This document shows positions 17,981 to 60,902 of a stretch of DNA of 64,000 nucleotides, piece after piece; the first letter of the stretch is position 1; every line of letters starts with the position of its first letter. Source of the DNA: Campylobacterales bacterium (GTDB taxonomy: Bacteria; Campylobacterota; Campylobacteria; Campylobacterales; Sulfurimonadaceae). A model generated the notes under the pieces. The model saw nothing but the letters and a program-made list of their open reading frames with translations. It was not told the origin of the DNA and did not search any database. The DNA lies in the NCBI GenBank assembly GCA_016938735.1, contig JAFGUB010000046.1, positions 1-64,000 on the forward strand, given 5' to 3'. Both the position numbers and the translations under genes were made by a program.

Positions 17981-19303
17981 TTACTCCTTGCTTACATGTA
18001 AGGTCATGACGTTGCCGCGCGCGCTGATGGAGTGCAGCGCCACCCCATCAGCCGCGTAGGCATCGACATTGCCTCTGTAAAAGAGGTTCTTTTCATGCCC
18101 TCTGGCGTAGGGGGTTTCATCGATCTTTTTGCTGCTTGAGGGGATGGCGGCTTCGATCAGATCGACCCCTTTGGCCTCCGGATCGGCATTGACCATATTG
18201 AGGCTCCAGGTACGTCGCACTACGGCATCATCAACCTTCCACAGCGCCATGCCGCCCTCAAAGATCCCCTCAATCGCCTTAAGCCCCCGATCATAACCGC
18301 TGTTGTTGCGGTTCTCCAGCAGATAGTAGTGATCCGCATCGATGGGGATTTTAAAGATGTTGTATTGTGTCGAAGCGGCTTCGTTTAGGCTTACATGTAA
18401 AGAGGTGTGCTGCTCCATCTCCTGCGGCACGATCCAGCCGTTTTGGATCTTGCTCCAAGCGCAAAAGTGGGCGGGGCTGCTCCCCTCTTGCGCACCCAAA
18501 AAGGCCTCCGTCCCCCACATTCCCGCGCTCATCAGCCCAAAGTAACCGATGCCCGCAGAGTCGGGGTCGCCATAAGGGGTGGTGTCGTAGAGATCGGGCA
18601 GATTAAAAGCGGCATGCCCCAGCTCATGGGCGATGATGCCGACGGTGGCGTCGCGGCAGATGGAGGCCGATTCGTTGCAGTGGCGCTCGCCAAAGAGGGC
18701 GTAATTGCCGCCGTTGCTGCCGAGTTTGACTCCGTCAAGCGTGGGGGCGTAACTGCCCATGAGGGTGTAGGTGTGGGCAAAAACCCCCGGCAGTACGCTA
18801 GGCCCGTAGGCCTCTTCACTGCCCGCGACGATAAAGACCAGCAGCAGCTCCTGCGCGGAGATCGTTTGGTCGTTTTCGGCATCGTAAGCGCTAAAGTCGA
18901 TGAACGCATCGCTTTGAGAAAGCGCGGCAGAGAGGTCGCTTTGGATGGCGGTGGGGGTGGAGGGGTTGGGGTGGTTTTTGCTGAGAACAACGTCGATAAT
19001 GCCATCATCGATGCTCCCTTGGGTCTCACGCGCCGAGGCAAAATGGAAAAGGCCGCGTGAGTTTTCGGTGTAGAAGTGGTTGAGGGCTCCCTCTTGCATG
19101 GAGAAAAACTTCTCGTGCCACGACGCGGCATCATGCGTCAAAGCGACATCATCATAGGCGATGCGCACCACAAGCAGCGCACGCTCACTCTGCTGCGCGG
19201 GGGCGTTGGACGCTGACGATGAAGAGCCGGAGCCGCCATCGCCCGAACCGCCTCCACACCCTGCAATGAGCAGCATCAAAATCGGAAACACCATCTTTTT
19301 CAT
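17981..19303 (-). CDS. M6-family (InhA-like) metalloprotease, lipoprotein
   Basis: 440 aa secreted zinc protease. The lipoprotein signal ends at MLLIAGC, followed by a Gly/Ser-rich linker. The catalytic domain starts at RALLVVRIAYDD, and HELGHAAFNLPDLYD (near residue 226) is the M6 zinc motif HExxHxxxxxD. The domain runs through FGLMSAGMWG and PAHFCAWSKIQNGWI to the end. Unlike usual M6 enzymes there is no N-terminal propeptide; a matching domain is encoded by the next gene. The start ATG 19303 lies six bases after a TATACT box, so the mRNA may be leaderless. ATG 19294 is an alternative. Two palindromes (17992, 18391) encode LHV. Confidence 0.82.
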   Translation of the reverse strand: MKKMVFPILMLLIAGCGGGSGDGGSGSSSSASNAPAQQSERALLVVRIAYDDVALTHDAASWHEKFFSMQEGALNHFYTENSRGLFHFASARETQGSIDDGIIDVVLSKNHPNPSTPTAIQSDLSAALSQSDAFIDFSAYDAENDQTISAQELLLVFIVAGSEEAYGPSVLPGVFAHTYTLMGSYAPTLDGVKLGSNGGNYALFGERHCNESASICRDATVGIIAHELGHAAFNLPDLYDTTPYGDPDSAGIGYFGLMSAGMWGTEAFLGAQEGSSPAHFCAWSKIQNGWIVPQEMEQHTSLHVSLNEAASTQYNIFKIPIDADHYYLLENRNNSGYDRGLKAIEGIFEGGMALWKVDDAVVRRTWSLNMVNADPEAKGVDLIEAAIPSSSKKIDETPYARGHEKNLFYRGNVDAYAADGVALHSISARGNVMTLHVSKE

Positions 19304-19309
19304 GGGCGC

Positions 19310-19315
19310 AGTATA
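19310..19315 (-). promoter_or_regulatory. putative -10 for a leaderless M6 protease mRNA
   Basis: On the minus strand GGC-TATACT is followed by GCGCCC and ATG. Only six bases separate the -10 from the start codon, leaving no room for a Shine-Dalgarno site. Confidence 0.45.
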
Positions 19316-19344
19316 GCCAAAAGGGGGTAACAGGGCGGCTTTGC

Positions 19345-19350
19345 TATAAT
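19345..19350 (+). promoter_or_regulatory. putative glyQ -10
   Basis: TTGC-TATAAT-GCGCC: an extended -10 with the GC discriminator seen at several promoters in this window. A palindrome follows at 19361-19370 and supplies the AAAGAG ribosome-binding stretch before ATG 19382. Confidence 0.55.
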
Positions 19351-19381
19351 GCGCCACCATTTACATGTAAAGAGTTTTTTC

Positions 19382-36863: not shown

Positions 36864-37925
36864 ATGATCCAACGCTACCCCACCAAAAAAATCTATGTCG
36901 GCTCCGTAGCCGTTGGCGGTGATGCGCCGATCTCTGTTCAGTCAATGACCTACACCCGCACCGCCGATGTGGCTGCAACGGTCGAGCAGATTAACCGCCT
37001 GCATTTTGCGGGCTGCGACATCGTGCGTGTGGCGGTGCCGGACGAGGAGGATGCGCTCGCACTTGCCGCCATCAAGGCGCAAATCTCCCTGCCGCTCATT
37101 GCCGATATTCACTTTAACCACAAACTCGCCCTTATCGCGGCGCAGAGTGTGGATTGCATTCGTATCAATCCCGGCAATATCGGTTCCAAAGAGAAGATGC
37201 GCGAAGTCGTGCGTGCGTGCGCCGAGCGTAACATCCCCATTCGTATCGGGGTGAATGCCGGAAGTCTGGAGAAGCAGTTTGAGGAGCGCTACGGGCAGAC
37301 TCCAGAGGGGATGGTCGCGTCGGCTGAGTACAATATCAAATACCTTGAAGATTTGGGTTTTACGGATATCAAGGTCTCGCTCAAAGCCAGTGACGTGGCG
37401 CGTACCGTCGAGGCGTACCGCTTGTTGCGACCCAAAAACCACTACCCTTTTCATCTGGGGGTAACCGAAGCGGGCACGGTCTTTCATGCGACGATCAAGA
37501 GTGCGATTGCGCTGGGGACGCTGCTGCTTGAGGGCATCGGCGATACGCTGCGCGTCTCGATTACAGGCGAGCTCGAAGAGGAGATCCGCGTAGGCCGCGC
37601 CATTCTCAAAGACAGCGGGGTGGCCAAAGAGGGGCTTAATATCATCTCTTGCCCCACCTGCGGACGCATCGAGGCGGATTTGGTGAGCGCCGTGGCGCAG
37701 GTAGAGGCGCGCACCCGTCATATCAAAAAACCGCTCGATGTCTCGGTGATGGGCTGCGTGGTCAATGCCATCGGTGAGGCCAAACATGCCGACGTAGCGA
37801 TTGCCTATGGCAAGGGCAGCGGCCTTATCATGGTCAAAGGCGAAGTGGTGGCGCGGCTGGATGAAAATCAGTTGGTGGATCGTTTTGTAGCAGAGGTCGA
37901 GAAGATGGCGCAAAGCGAGGAGTGA
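36864..37925 (+). CDS. ispG: 4-hydroxy-3-methylbut-2-enyl diphosphate synthase
   Basis: IspG/GcpE (353 aa), a [4Fe-4S] enzyme of the MEP isoprenoid pathway that reduces MEcPP to HMBPP. The TIM barrel carries [32 protein letters not shown] and [11 protein letters not shown]. The cluster-binding domain has [14 protein letters not shown] and [17 protein letters not shown], giving the three cysteines and glutamate. The length fits the bacterial (two-domain) form. Its stop overlaps the dnaB ATG by one base, so ispG and dnaB are in one operon. Confidence 0.96.
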
Positions 37926-40405
37926 TGGAGGAGCACCTTTACAACCTCGCTTTTGAGCGTTCGGTTTTAAGCTCGATTATCTTTGAGCCGTCGCAATTTG
38001 ATGCCATCGAAGCGCAGCTCCGCTCAGAAGATTTTTACCTCTCGGCGCATCAGGATATTTTTCGTGCGATGCAGTCTCTTAGCCGCGCCGACAAGCCGAT
38101 CGATGAGGAGTTTCTTAAAAAGGCGCTCACCAAAGAGAAAAAGTTTGATGAAGGGGTGCTGCTCTCCATCCTCACCGCCAGCCCCATCGCCAACACCCGC
38201 GCCTACATCGAAGAGCTCAAAGACAAGGCGCTCAAACGCCACTTGCTCACCCTGACCACCGAGATCAAGCGTGTCACGGTCGAAGAGGAGCATAGCGCAA
38301 GCGAAGTGATCGACATTGTCGAAAAGAAGCTCTACGAGATTACCCAAGAGAGCCAAAGCGCCGATTTTCTCGATGCGCCGACCATTACCGATGCGACGCT
38401 GGCCTACATCGAGGAGATGAAGGCGCGGGGCGATTCGGTGCTGGTGGGCGTAGATACCGGTTTTGCTGAGCTCAATAAAATGACCACGGGCTTTGGCAAG
38501 GGCGATCTGGTGATCGTGGCGGCGAGGCCGGCGATGGGCAAGTGCCTTGGCAAAGGGACTAAGGTCGTGATGTTTGATGGAACATTGAAAAAGGTAGAGG
38601 AGGTTGAAGTCGGTGATTTGCTGATGGGGGATGACTCAACGCCTCGAAGGGTGCTCTCTTTGGCTCGTGGCAGAGATAAGATGTATTGGGTGCGGCAAAG
38701 CAGAGGGATCGATTATCGGGTCAATGAAGCGCATATCCTTTCGCTCAAACGCAGCCGCAACGAACGCGTGCACCGACACGGCGATGTCATTAATCTAAGC
38801 GTGGCGGAGTACCTAAGCAAGAGCGAAAAGTTCAAAACCAACTACAAGGGCTACAAGGTAGCGGTCGATTTTGAAGCCCGTGAAGTTGCGATTGAACCCT
38901 ATTTCTTGGGACTTTGGCTTGGAGACGGCACATCAAGTTCCGTGGATATCACCAATGAAGATCCTGAGGTTAAAGCGTATCTTGATGCCTACGCGACACG
39001 GCTGGGGATGACGTTTCAAGAGCGCCGACATGAGGGGCGCACAACGACTTTGAGTATCACCAAGGGGTATCAAGGCGGCTATTGGAAAAATGACCAATCG
39101 CTTCAGGGCACATTGGCGCACTACGGATTGATCAATAACAAACATATCCCACACGTTTATATTCAAAACAGCAAAGCAATCCGGCTGGAACTGCTCGCCG
39201 GTTTGATTGACAGTGACGGATATTACGATGATCGCTATCATATTTTTGAAATTGTCCAGAAAAATGAGACCTTGGCGCGACAGATCAAATATTTGGCCGA
39301 TACACTCGGGTTCCGCACTTCGATTAAAACCAAAAAAGCGACGATCCGCTCCAGAGCGTACAGTTGTGAAGTTTACAGGGTGCGCATTTTTGGTCATCTT
39401 GAAACGATTCCCACCCGTATTGAGCGCAAAAAGGCGCGTTTGCGACAAGCCAAACGCGATATTTTGCATACGGGGATCAAGGTTGAATATGATGGTGTGG
39501 ATGAGTATTACGGGTTTGTGATTGATGGTAATCACCTCTTTTTACTTGAAGATATGACGGTCACGCACAATACCTCTTTTATTCTCAACACCGTCGAACA
39601 CCTCCTCAAGCAAGGGCGGGGTGTGGCGTTTTTCTCGCTGGAGATGCCCGCTGAGCAGTTGATGCTGCGGCTGCTGAGTATCCAAACCTCGATTCATTTG
39701 CAAAATTTGCGTCTGGGAAATCTAAGCGATGTGGAGCAAAAACGTTTAAACGATGCGATTGCGCGGATGCGTAGCAGCAAGCTTTTTGTGGATGACGGCG
39801 GATCGGTGAACATCCATCAGCTCCGCTCCAAGATGCGCAAGCTCAAATCCAAACATCCCGAAATCGAACTGTGTGTGGTGGATTATCTGCAGATTATGAG
39901 CGGGCTTGGGGGCAAGGATCGTCACCTTGAGGTGAGTGAAATTTCGCGCGGGCTGAAGATGCTTGCGCGTGAGCTGGAGATTCCCATCGTGGCACTTTCG
40001 CAGCTCAACCGTGGGCTTGAGTCGCGCCACGACAAGCGCCCGATGCTCAGCGACATTCGTGAATCGGGATCGATTGAGCAAGACGCCGACATTATCCTCT
40101 TTGTTTACCGCGACGATGTTTATTTGTACAAAGAGGAGAAAGAGCGCGAGAAGGCGGCCAAGGCGGAGGGCAAGGAATTTCAGAGTCAGTATGTCGAAAA
40201 AGAGGAAGAGGAGGCCGAGATCATCATCGGCAAGCAGCGCAACGGCCCTACGGGGCATGTGAAGCTGGTGTTTCAAAAAAAACTAACCCGTTTTGTGGAC
40301 AAACCTAGCTACGGCGGGATCGAAATCGCCTATGAAAACATCGACATGAGCTCCGCGAAGATGGGGATTGAAGATGGCGGAAGCTTCTCTATGCCGGTGA
40401 TCTGA
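37925..40405 (+). CDS. dnaB: replicative DNA helicase DnaB, interrupted by an intein
   Basis: 826 aa precursor. The mature helicase is about 483 aa, the usual size. The N-terminal domain (LYNLAFERSVLSSIIFEPSQ and onward) and linker end in VIVAARPAMGK. There the P-loop is cut by a 343-residue intein (residues 207-549), and TSFILNTVEHLLKQGRGVAF resumes after it. Walker B LCVVDYLQIMSG, and SQLNRGLESRHDKRPMLSDIRESGSIEQDADI, are intact. The protein unwinds DNA at the replication fork and can work only after splicing. ATG 37925 overlaps the ispG stop; GTG 37922 is an alternative. The neighbour comEC overlaps by one base, an order also seen in Helicobacter (from memory). Confidence 0.95.
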   Translation: MEEHLYNLAFERSVLSSIIFEPSQFDAIEAQLRSEDFYLSAHQDIFRAMQSLSRADKPIDEEFLKKALTKEKKFDEGVLLSILTASPIANTRAYIEELKDKALKRHLLTLTTEIKRVTVEEEHSASEVIDIVEKKLYEITQESQSADFLDAPTITDATLAYIEEMKARGDSVLVGVDTGFAELNKMTTGFGKGDLVIVAARPAMGKCLGKGTKVVMFDGTLKKVEEVEVGDLLMGDDSTPRRVLSLARGRDKMYWVRQSRGIDYRVNEAHILSLKRSRNERVHRHGDVINLSVAEYLSKSEKFKTNYKGYKVAVDFEAREVAIEPYFLGLWLGDGTSSSVDITNEDPEVKAYLDAYATRLGMTFQERRHEGRTTTLSITKGYQGGYWKNDQSLQGTLAHYGLINNKHIPHVYIQNSKAIRLELLAGLIDSDGYYDDRYHIFEIVQKNETLARQIKYLADTLGFRTSIKTKKATIRSRAYSCEVYRVRIFGHLETIPTRIERKKARLRQAKRDILHTGIKVEYDGVDEYYGFVIDGNHLFLLEDMTVTHNTSFILNTVEHLLKQGRGVAFFSLEMPAEQLMLRLLSIQTSIHLQNLRLGNLSDVEQKRLNDAIARMRSSKLFVDDGGSVNIHQLRSKMRKLKSKHPEIELCVVDYLQIMSGLGGKDRHLEVSEISRGLKMLARELEIPIVALSQLNRGLESRHDKRPMLSDIRESGSIEQDADIILFVYRDDVYLYKEEKEREKAAKAEGKEFQSQYVEKEEEEAEIIIGKQRNGPTGHVKLVFQKKLTRFVDKPSYGGIEIAYENIDMSSAKMGIEDGGSFSMPVI
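38543..39571 (+). mobile_element. DnaB intein with LAGLIDADG homing endonuclease
   Basis: In-frame intein of 343 residues. It starts at Cys (CLGKGTKVVMFDG, block A) and ends in VTHN with the final His-Asn (block G), followed by the +1 residue Thr of the helicase. Block B reads YRVNEAHILSL, keeping the histidine but with Asn in place of the usual Thr. Block F is YYGFVIDGNHLFLLEDMTV. Two dodecapeptide motifs of a LAGLIDADG endonuclease are present: FLGLWLGDG (coding near 38903-38930) and LLAGLIDSDG (near 39190-39220), both with their catalytic Asp. All splicing residues are intact, so it should splice and may still home. It interrupts the P-loop between Lys and Thr, a site used by several known DnaB inteins. 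Confidence 0.95.
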
Positions 40406-54545: not shown

Positions 54546-55946
54546 ATGTCCATGACACGAAGAGATGCATTCAAAGTTGCGGGTGCTACCGCTGCGGTAG
54601 CGGCGGCTGCCACCTTTACCGGTTGCGCCAAAGCCGAGGGGGCTGCTCCGGCGGTCGCCCCGTCACAGTCACATGTGACGCTGATGCCAAAATCCAAGGG
54701 CAAGCGCGTCGTGATTATCGGTGCAGGCTTTGGCGGTCTTGCTGCGGCAAAGTACATTCGCAAGCAGGATGCAAGCATCGAAGTGGTGGTTTTGGATAGG
54801 CGCGACATCTTTATGTCTTGCCCCTTTAGCAACTCTTTGTTAGGCGGTCTTGAGGATGTGACGCTCGATACGCTGACACGCGATCTGTATGCCGGAGCGG
54901 CGAAATACGGCTATCGTTTGGAGCAGTGCACGGTGACGGGTATCGACCGTGCTTCCAAGACGGTCATGACCAGCTGCGGCAGCGTCGATTATGATATTTT
55001 GGTGCTCTCTCCGGGGATCGACTACGACTACAAGGGGCAGTTTCCCGAGTGGTCGGATGAGAAGATTCGTCACGTACAGCAGCAGGCCCCTGCCGCTTTG
55101 ATGGCCGGCAGTGAGCACCTTGCGCTCAAGCGCATGATGGACAACATGGACGGCGGCAACGTCATTATCACCGTTCCCGCCGGTAAGTATCGCTGCCCGC
55201 CCGCTCCGTTTGAGCGTGCGAGCATGATTGCTGCGTATATGAAAAAAGAGGGTATCGAAGGCAAGGTGATCATCCTCAATGCCACTAAAAATATCGCTAA
55301 AGGTAAAGCCTTCAAAGAAGTTTGGGCCGATAAGTACTCCGGCTTGATCGAACACCGAGACGATTGTACGATCACTGACATCGATCTGACCAACAACAAA
55401 ATCCACTACAAGCAGATTGTGGGTGTAGACAAGGAAGAGAAAGAGATTGTTGAAACAAAAGTAGAGTCTTTTGCCGTGCTGAACTTTATTCCCAAAAATA
55501 AGGCCAATGCGGTTGTGGCGATGAGCGGTGTCAAAACCAATGCTTGGGGCGGTGTGATCATGAACGGCGCAAGCTTCCAATCTAAAGATGACAAGCATGT
55601 TTACGCCATCGGAGACGTTGTCGGACACGGTGTACCGCCTTCGGGGCAAACGGCCAACTGGACGGCTAAAGAGGCGGTCAAAGAGATTGTCGCACAGCTC
55701 AATGCTCATGAGCCTTACAAGCTCAATTTACCCTACAGTGCGGCGAATGTTTGTTACTCTATGGTCACCGACGGGCCGGAAGAGGCGATCATGGTAACGC
55801 ATGACTTCTCGTTCAACGGTACTGTGATTGCGGCTAAAGCGACGGTGCCGCATCCCAAAGACGGTGACGGTAAATACCGTTCAAAAGGCCTTGCCAAGGC
55901 GACCCGCGAGTGGTATCGCGGTATCTTAGATGACATGTTTATGTAA
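54546..55946 (+). CDS. FCSD-like sulfide dehydrogenase flavoprotein
   Basis: 466 aa periplasmic flavoprotein exported by the Tat pathway (TRRDAFKVAGATAAVAAAAT). It resembles FccB, the FAD subunit of flavocytochrome c sulfide dehydrogenase: KRVVIIGAGFGGLAAAKYIR binds FAD, MSCPFSNSLLGG and KYRCPPAPFERASMIAAYMK are family signatures, and VYAIGDVVGHGVPPSG closes the FAD site. FccB normally has a second redox cysteine in a GWCPVD segment; here the aligned stretch reads NAWGGVIMNGASF, so that cysteine seems absent. It is followed after nine bases by a Rieske protein and then a cytochrome, in place of FccA. Sulfide or another reduced sulfur compound is the likely substrate. Confidence 0.82.
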   Translation: MSMTRRDAFKVAGATAAVAAAATFTGCAKAEGAAPAVAPSQSHVTLMPKSKGKRVVIIGAGFGGLAAAKYIRKQDASIEVVVLDRRDIFMSCPFSNSLLGGLEDVTLDTLTRDLYAGAAKYGYRLEQCTVTGIDRASKTVMTSCGSVDYDILVLSPGIDYDYKGQFPEWSDEKIRHVQQQAPAALMAGSEHLALKRMMDNMDGGNVIITVPAGKYRCPPAPFERASMIAAYMKKEGIEGKVIILNATKNIAKGKAFKEVWADKYSGLIEHRDDCTITDIDLTNNKIHYKQIVGVDKEEKEIVETKVESFAVLNFIPKNKANAVVAMSGVKTNAWGGVIMNGASFQSKDDKHVYAIGDVVGHGVPPSGQTANWTAKEAVKEIVAQLNAHEPYKLNLPYSAANVCYSMVTDGPEEAIMVTHDFSFNGTVIAAKATVPHPKDGDGKYRSKGLAKATREWYRGILDDMFM

Positions 55947-55955
55947 GAAGGTTGA

Positions 55956-56687
55956 ATGAATCGCAGAGATTTTATTAAAATGGGTGCACTCGGGGGCGTG
56001 ATCGTTCTCACCCGCCCGTCTTTGATTGATCAGAAGTTGTTTGCGCACGATGGGCGTCTGTATGAATCGTTTGAAAAAGTACAGCTTGTCGATGAAGAGG
56101 GCACCCCTATCAAGGCATCTGCCTTGGAGGTGGATGTGGATTATATTTTTCAGTATCCACATGCGGGTACCCCCTGTATCTTACTCAATCTCAGCGAAAA
56201 GAGCGAGGTCAACGTCGAGCTCAAAGATGCACTCGGTGATATTTATCTGTGGAGCGAAGGGGTCGGCAAGAGCGGCTCTATCGTGGCCTACTCCGCGATC
56301 TGTTCGCATGCGCTGACCCATCCCAACAAAAGCGAAAGCTTTTTCGCTTATGTCCCCAAAGGTAAAGCTTCGGCGGCGATCGAGAAGGGTGGAGCCATCG
56401 TCTGCTCGTCTCATCTATCGTCGTTCGATCCTCGTAACGGCGGTAAAGTATTGGGCGGGCCGGCCGATCAGCCTTTGGCCTCAATTGTGCTGGAGCACAA
56501 CGCTCAAGATGATACATTATGGGCGGTAGGCGTGCTGGGAAGTGCCAAGTTCAACGACTACTTCAACGCTTTCAAGACGGAGATGGACCGAGACTGGGGC
56601 GGAAAGCGACAGGCTAAAAAGCTGGTGAAGATATCGGCTCCGACCGTGAAACTGACCAAGTTCACCAAAGAAGTGATTCAATACTAA
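55956..56687 (+). CDS. Tat-exported Rieske [2Fe-2S] protein
   Basis: 243 aa iron-sulfur protein. The Tat signal NRRDFIKMGALGGVIVLTRP is followed by a beta domain, then YSAICSHALTHPN and VCSSHLSSFDPRNGGKVLGG. These give the CxH and CxxH Rieske ligands. The 31 residues between them exceed the 15-17 of typical Rieske proteins. The downstream GPADQPLASI resembles arsenite-oxidase and bc-type Rieske ends. It lies between the FCSD-like flavoprotein and a cytochrome, so it probably relays electrons from the flavoprotein. Genes on both sides are within ten bases. Confidence 0.8.
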   Translation: MNRRDFIKMGALGGVIVLTRPSLIDQKLFAHDGRLYESFEKVQLVDEEGTPIKASALEVDVDYIFQYPHAGTPCILLNLSEKSEVNVELKDALGDIYLWSEGVGKSGSIVAYSAICSHALTHPNKSESFFAYVPKGKASAAIEKGGAIVCSSHLSSFDPRNGGKVLGGPADQPLASIVLEHNAQDDTLWAVGVLGSAKFNDYFNAFKTEMDRDWGGKRQAKKLVKISAPTVKLTKFTKEVIQY

Positions 56688-56695
56688 GGATACCC

Positions 56696-57109
56696 ATGAA
56701 AAAGATGCTTTTGATTGCTCTTGCGCTGTGCATGGCGCTACCGCTTTTGGCCAACGACGACTCAAAACTCAAACGCAAGCAAGACATGCAGATGCTCGCA
56801 AGCGGTTTGCGGCTGTTGCAAGACGGTTTGATTTACAACAATAAAAGCCTGATGCTGAGTGGCGTTGATATGATCGAAAAAGGGGAGAAGAACCTGCTTT
56901 CCGCCCATGGTGAAGGACTTAAAAAATACCTTCCCGGCGATACCGCCTATGCCTATAAGTACGCCGAAAAAGCGGCGCAACGCATTGCCGATTACTCTAA
57001 AGAGCTTAGCGAGCAGGTCAAAGATAAGAAAGACTACACCAAAATTTCCGAAACCTATGCTTACATCATCAACGAATGTGCGGGCTGCCATCTACGTATT
57101 CGTAAATAA
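56696..57109 (+). CDS. c'-like cytochrome with C-terminal heme
   Basis: 137 aa secreted protein. The signal peptide (KKMLLIALALCMALPLLA) is followed by helices LKRKQDMQMLASGLRLLQDG, GVDMIEKGEKNLLSAHGEGL and QRIADYSKELSEQVKDKKDY. A single heme site, INECAGCHLRIRK, stands at the C-terminus. Four helices with a terminal CxxCH is the plan of class II cytochromes (c' type). As the last gene of the operon it would be the electron acceptor of the FCSD-like/Rieske pair. Its gene ends before the palindrome hairpin shared with ribA. Confidence 0.85.
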   Translation: MKKMLLIALALCMALPLLANDDSKLKRKQDMQMLASGLRLLQDGLIYNNKSLMLSGVDMIEKGEKNLLSAHGEGLKKYLPGDTAYAYKYAEKAAQRIADYSKELSEQVKDKKDYTKISETYAYIINECAGCHLRIRK

Positions 57110-59714: not shown

Positions 59715-60902
59715 ATGAAAGGTTTGATCTTTATTTTTGCCGTATTATTGCAGCTTTATGCAGGATCTGCTGTGGAGTTGGACGCTATGTATAGCGATTC
59801 GACAAAATGCAAGGCGTGTCACCACTATATTATCGAACAGTGGGAGTCGTCGTGGCATGCCAAGTCGCACTACAAGAATGATGAGTACTTTCGAAAAACA
59901 GTCGATTATATCGGGCGGAAAAGCCGACGCTCAACCAATGCGATTCAGGTGGGATGCGCCTCATGTCACAATCCTCGTATTGCTGTGACCGAGACAGATA
60001 TTGATTATGAGATCATGGTGGCCATGAAACTTGACGAGCACTCTGAGGTGAATAAGGCGCTACAAAATGATCTGCTCTCAGAGGGAATCAACTGTGTCGT
60101 TTGCCACAACATTGACAAAATTCATGCCGATTTGGATGGTTCTAAGCGGGGAGTGCATCGTGTAAGCTGGATGAAGAGCGGAACGATGGTTGGACCTTTG
60201 GAAGATGCATTTTCTCCCTATCATAAAGTGCAAAAGCGCGATTTTTTTAACGAAGAGGCTGATACGCTCTGTTTTGTCTGCCACGCTAACGATCGCTCTG
60301 AAGAGGGTATTGTCTTTACCAATATGGAGTCAGAATACCGTAAAGGCGAGAAGATGTGTGTTGATTGTCACATGAGCCCGCGCCATGAGGGAATCGCCTC
60401 GACACTGCGGATCAATGACGGTAAGCAGCGAACCCGATTGGTTCGTGATCACCTTTTCGCCGGCGGTCATGTGAGCTCCATGTGGAACGGAGCACTTGAT
60501 CTTGAGGCAAAAAGCCAGGGGGACGGTTTGGTCGTGACGCTGATCAACCCTCAGCCGCACAACATCCCCAGCGGATTTGGTGCACGCGAGTTGATCTTGG
60601 AGGTCGAGTATCTCAATGGAAGCGAGGCGATGGGGCGTCACAGTATGTCGCTGACCCGCACCTACACCAGCAAGCGGGGCAAGCCGACCATTCCGCATCT
60701 AGCCAAAGAGATGGGACCGGATATGTCGGTGCCGGCACATGGTAAAAAAAGTGTGAAGTTTCCTCTAGCCAAAGGCGCAGATGCCGCTTCCATCACCCTT
60801 TATTATCGTTTGGTGAACGATGAGGTGCGTGGGATGCTTGAACTGCAAGAACCCATATGGTCTGAGAAGATGTTGGTGAATTCATTGGTACAAAAATTAT
60901 AA
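59715..60902 (+). CDS. pentaheme c-type cytochrome
   Basis: 395 aa periplasmic protein with a signal peptide (KGLIFIFAVLLQLYAGSA) and five CxxCH sites: CKACH (near residue 32), CASCH (81), CVVCH (127), CFVCH (186) and CVDCH (215). The heme part resembles the cytochrome c554 fold. The last 150 residues lack hemes and look like a beta-sandwich (LEAKSQGDGLVVTLINPQPH and onward). It is not NrfA or HAO by motif (no CxxCK, no cross-linking tyrosine evident). It stands alone nine bases after argF, with CAGGGA before the ATG. Its redox partner is unknown. Confidence 0.82.
   Translation: MKGLIFIFAVLLQLYAGSAVELDAMYSDSTKCKACHHYIIEQWESSWHAKSHYKNDEYFRKTVDYIGRKSRRSTNAIQVGCASCHNPRIAVTETDIDYEIMVAMKLDEHSEVNKALQNDLLSEGINCVVCHNIDKIHADLDGSKRGVHRVSWMKSGTMVGPLEDAFSPYHKVQKRDFFNEEADTLCFVCHANDRSEEGIVFTNMESEYRKGEKMCVDCHMSPRHEGIASTLRINDGKQRTRLVRDHLFAGGHVSSMWNGALDLEAKSQGDGLVVTLINPQPHNIPSGFGARELILEVEYLNGSEAMGRHSMSLTRTYTSKRGKPTIPHLAKEMGPDMSVPAHGKKSVKFPLAKGADAASITLYYRLVNDEVRGMLELQEPIWSEKMLVNSLVQKL

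Follow-up and report, generated by a model that had tools for sequence, protein, structure and literature searches.

FccB, SoxF, AioB and SoxYZ are known protein families, and the gene module analysed here is a variant of flavocytochrome c sulfide dehydrogenase (FCSD). In arsenite oxidase, the exported small subunit, the Rieske protein AioB, passes electrons from the catalytic subunit, AioA, to a cytochrome. In FCSD, known from the structures 1fcd (Allochromatium), 3vrd and 5n1t, the FAD flavoprotein FccB is partnered by a heme c subunit, FccA. FccB-type sulfide dehydrogenases without a heme subunit are also known: the monomeric SoxF of Paracoccus pantotrophus and of Chlorobaculum tepidum is cited in PMC3504083, whose passages on SoxF describe no Rieske partner. 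The same paper drew, in 2012, a DhsU1/Rieske/DhsU2-sox gene cluster from an uncultured Sulfurihydrogenibium relative (Aquificota). The passages on this cluster neither analyse nor interpret its Rieske protein, and report that DhsU1, a homologous flavoprotein, oxidised sulfide on its own and did not oxidise S0, sulfite or thiosulfate.

A Campylobacterales genome carries an FccB-like gene followed by Rieske and cytochrome genes. The window, a 64,000-nucleotide stretch of Campylobacterales bacterium GCA_016938735.1 (contig JAFGUB010000046.1, positions 1–64,000, forward strand), contains three ORFs on the + strand separated by gaps of 9 bp and 8 bp, matching the FccB-like/Rieske/cytochrome gene set described by the initial annotation. 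They encode a type A (see below) FccB-like FAD flavoprotein (54546..55946; 466 aa, predicted Tat signal, assigned by Pfam and PDB homology), a Rieske [2Fe-2S] protein with an AioB/SoxF-like fold (55956..56687; 243 aa, assigned by Pfam and a structure model), and a probable class II (c'/c556-like) monoheme cytochrome (56696..57109; 137 aa, signal peptide). Unlike FccAB, the window has no FccA-like heme c subunit gene adjacent to FccB, whose neighbours are the Rieske and class II cytochrome genes. The Aquificota cluster, as drawn, has a similar content of FccB-type, Rieske, cytochrome-like and sox genes, so the FccB-Rieske pairing is not wholly new; that cluster differs in phylum, in having two flavoprotein genes that flank the Rieske gene, and in carrying a full soxXYZAB set.

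Clustering the module's neighbours across loci returned mostly lineage-specific housekeeping genes, and scans for terminators (1 terminator-like site versus 3.8 in shuffled sequence) and promoters (7 promoter-like sites versus 3.7) were uninformative. A multiheme cytochrome gene (weakly ExtKL-like) lies beside argF near the module (window 59715–60902; L062:9346–10410; L063:9421–10605), and this pair recurs close to the module in distant relatives. Elsewhere in the window, the DnaB helicase gene at 37922–40405 contains an intein that carries Hint (Pfam Hom_end_hint 1.3e-21) and LAGLIDADG (LAGLIDADG_3 5.8e-10) homing-endonuclease domains, and 17981–19360 encodes a predicted secreted M6-family metallopeptidase (Peptidase_M6 4.7e-9).

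The flavoprotein keeps the cysteine pair that it was at first thought to have lost. It passes the Pfam cut-offs for FCSD_central (1.5e-27; 96.5 bits, cut-off 27) and FCSD-flav_bind (2e-8; 34.9 bits, cut-off 26), and phmmer matches it to the solved sulfide dehydrogenases 5n1t (6.3e-56), 3vrd (1.1e-43) and 1fcd (3e-43). The aligned stretch of the Allochromatium protein (1fcd) has cysteines at 42, 100, 161, 274 and 337. According to the passages of PMC3504083 on these residues, Cys42 binds FAD and the disulfide is considered to link Cys161 with Cys337; the residues corresponding to these three and to Glu167 are named there as FAD, disulfide and active-site residues. Aligned to 1fcd and 5n1t, the window protein retains Cys42 (CPFSNS) and Cys161 (RCPPAPFERA), two motifs already recognised in the initial annotation, as well as Cys337 (NVCYSM) and Glu167, and it has these residues and the FAD flavoprotein fold in common with FccAB. 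Where GWCPVD or GWCPVN aligns it reads NAWGGVI, without a cysteine, as had been observed. That cysteine, however, is Cys274 in Allochromatium numbering and lies outside the Cys161/Cys337 pair; the second cysteine that the annotation had allowed might lie elsewhere, for example at NVCYSM, is Cys337 itself.

Conservation across the family agrees with this assignment. Cys161, Glu167 and Cys337 are invariant in all 96 aligned FccB-like proteins, the window's included, and the pair is predicted to form a disulfide bond; with the alignment to 1fcd and 5n1t, this invariance rules out loss of the redox cysteine. Cys274 is present in only 5 of the 96, namely the three PDB sequences and two from Campylobacterota (L087 and L088), whose FccB genes are each preceded by a small c-type cytochrome gene. 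The absence of Cys274 is thus, as read from the alignment, a mark of a lineage apart from heme-partnered FccB and no sign of lost catalysis. Position 42 is Cys in 80 proteins, including the window's, Pro in 1 and Gly in 15, mostly of type B (L050, L051, L054, L091, L095 and others); replacement of the FAD-binding cysteine by glycine suggests non-covalent FAD in those proteins. The window's genome also encodes a second, divergent FccB-like protein of 505 aa (G000:C31:91827–93287; L002, L069), which has no Rieske neighbour and reads NSWGGAI at the Cys274 segment.

The Rieske protein has complete cluster ligands and an AioB-like fold. Pfam recognises the Rieske domain (7.5e-6), with ligands C116/H118 and C150/H153, and the CxH and CxxH ligand motifs are invariant in 87 of 87 aligned Rieske proteins. 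The predicted Tat signal of this ORF agrees with the export proposed earlier, and the 31 residues between H118 and C150 bear out the long inter-ligand spacing. The protein matches archaeal SoxF (1jm1) and AioB but falls well below the NCBIfam cut-offs for both AioB (50.8 bits, cut-off 95.65) and SoxL2 (98.7 bits, cut-off 582.1). Its structure model (pLDDT 85, pTM 0.86) is most similar in fold to the small subunit of arsenite oxidase (1g8j; E 1.1e-8, TM 0.80 by target length), with archaeal SoxF 12th in the ranking. Fold and Rieske ligands are thus common to AioB, the archaeal SoxF/SoxL2 proteins and the window protein, whereas the latter differs from AioB in its longer inter-ligand stretch, in an extra C-terminal helical region, and in having FccB rather than AioA as its partner.

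The third gene probably encodes a class II cytochrome. Its product closes with CAGCHLRIRK, confirming the C-terminal CxxCH heme motif noted at the outset. The match to Pfam Cytochrom_C_2 is below the cut-off (E 0.013; 16.9 bits, cut-off 26.5), 8 of 26 family members match cytochrome c' at E ≤0.01, and the model (pLDDT 88) has long helices and a weak best c' structure match (E 0.016, TM 0.64–0.68). Met31, invariant in the family, might be the sixth ligand of the heme, the arrangement known from low-spin c556.

FccB and the Rieske protein are linked across Campylobacterota. Among 249 genomes of the phylum, 35 carry FccB-like genes and 17 carry the Rieske gene, and in all 17 an FccB gene lies close to it; in one GC-rich region with unreliable gene calls (L065), tblastn matches were used. 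A Rieske profile search of named records returned 71 loci, nearly all from Campylobacterota MAGs; the exceptions are a record labelled Petrimonas, which is probably a binning error, and another whose only label is 'bacterium', and since the scan keys on short conserved motifs, distant relatives from other phyla may escape it. FccB is nearby in 66 of these loci (on the same strand in 65), the cytochrome in 62 and SoxYZ in 15, a frequency at which SoxYZ was rejected as a constant part of the module. Where SoxYZ is present, it takes three different gene orders or positions. Three of the five loci without FccB sit at contig ends; the other two, L104 and L128, have complete 5 kb flanks and no FccB nearby, L128 keeping the cytochrome and L104 neither. 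As some loci also lack the cytochrome, no part is strictly obligatory. One locus (L091) carries a tandem pair of complete modules whose Rieske proteins share 69% identity. The linkage is kept over at least six families, and this phylum-wide pairing, usually with a cytochrome and here with no adjacent FccA-like gene, lends support from gene content to the different electron route that the initial annotation had suspected.

FccB types seem to have been exchanged beneath a single Rieske lineage. Rieske-linked FccB proteins form two groups in the tree, A, which includes the window's, and B. The Rieske proteins linked to type A do not form a clade: a tree constrained to make them one was rejected (p-AU 9.8e-5; lnL lower by 82), and the Rieske tree requires five or more A/B switches, counting loci with an assigned type A or B. 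The idea that A-type and B-type modules are separate lineages is therefore rejected for the Rieske protein. Judged from these trees, either flavoprotein seems able to work with the same Rieske partner, in support of an electron route common to both.

We propose, with a probability of roughly 0.62, that the module encodes a periplasmic FccB-family dehydrogenase acting on sulfide (or on sulfane/persulfide), with FccA replaced by a Rieske protein plus a class II cytochrome. Sulfide or a persulfide would attack the Cys161–Cys337 disulfide next to FAD. Two electrons would enter FAD and then pass singly to the [2Fe-2S] cluster of the Rieske protein, a step modelled on AioB as its best fold match; the small cytochrome would then relay them to the cytochrome c pool and on to a terminal oxidase. 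Where relatives have a SoxYZ of their own, its SoxY carrier cysteine would probably receive or supply the sulfane product. The data show the gene content, the conserved catalytic residues and linkage, the exchange of FccB types and the third SoxY clade; which substrate is used, in what sequence electrons move and whether the proteins associate physically are inferred. The least secure element for the window's own module is its substrate: the module is of type A and has no linked SoxYZ, and the only SoxY of its genome lies away from the module, next to soxZ, soxA and soxB.

SoxYZ linkage, as read from trees and loci, is confined to type B FccB, and suggests carrier-bound sulfane there. Module-linked SoxY proteins form a third clade, apart from the SoxY of soxXAB and soxCD clusters, in a tree with an arbitrary root and several long rows. 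All 23 have the carrier cysteine motif at the C-terminus. They pass the Pfam SoxY cut-off (105 and 88 bits, cut-off 28.4) and fail that of NCBIfam SoxY_true_GGCGG, the thiosulfate carrier (110.7 and 90.7 bits, cut-off 125). In four near-complete genomes (G031, G053, G057 and G139) the linked SoxY is the only one, with no SoxA, SoxB or SoxC above cut-offs; two type A genomes (G203 and G239) have none of SoxY, SoxA, SoxB and SoxC above cut-offs. We tentatively suggest a possible Sox-independent SoxYZ pathway, operating without SoxXA, SoxB or SoxCD, in which the module and its own SoxYZ would oxidise sulfide onto a protein carrier, and would take over the part of SoxCD in organisms with an incomplete Sox system.

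A rather doubtful alternative is that replacing SoxCD is the module's main task: it would oxidise or remove SoxYZ-bound sulfane and so free Sox turnover from dependence on the molybdenum enzyme. SoxC occurs in 4 of 11 SoxB-positive genomes with the Rieske module versus 26 of 29 without (Fisher p = 0.0015), and within family f1 in 2 of 6 versus 7 of 7 (p = 0.021), a comparison that is suggestive only, because families share history, f1 alone is informative within a family, and it was made after the data were seen. The third SoxY clade accompanies part of the module's range, and protein family searches of the window's genome, which recovered SoxA and SoxB, gave no SoxC hit above the cut-off. Its soxB (G000:C47:36294–38012; L071) contains one in-frame TAG, reflecting either a draft error or decay. 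Electron counts argue against this reading, since FccB chemistry involves two electrons and that of SoxCD six. So do the four genomes with SoxYZ and none of SoxA, SoxB and SoxC, and the two without any of the four Sox proteins.

It is unlikely, a little more so than SoxCD replacement, that the flavoprotein performs ordinary FCSD-type sulfide detoxification or oxidation and that the Rieske protein has some other or assembly role, linked by operon history only. FccB does occur without a Rieske gene in 18 of 35 FccB-positive genomes, and DhsU1, in the passages of PMC3504083 on its activity, works alone with horse-heart cytochrome c. However, linkage over so many families, the swapping of FccB types within one Rieske lineage and invariant cluster ligands argue for a direct redox role of the Rieske protein. 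A different substrate, such as arsenite or an organic thiol, is suggested by the arsenite oxidase-like Rieske fold but is very improbable, given an FccB-type catalytic partner with all the sulfur-chemistry residues, no molybdopterin enzyme, and SoxYZ as the genes linked in relatives.

The proposed FccB-Rieske dehydrogenase bears on how a major group of sulfur oxidisers handles its substrates. In the open-licence literature, judged from search results, we found no description of the Campylobacterota-wide module, the exchange of FccB types or the third SoxY clade. Among the major sulfur oxidisers of vents, springs and groundwater are the Campylobacterota, to which the module would add a further route for electrons, and possibly one based on a sulfur carrier, that is missed when annotation relies on fccA, soxB or soxC. 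It would also explain, in a way open to testing, how species that have Sox and lack SoxCD handle carrier-bound sulfane.
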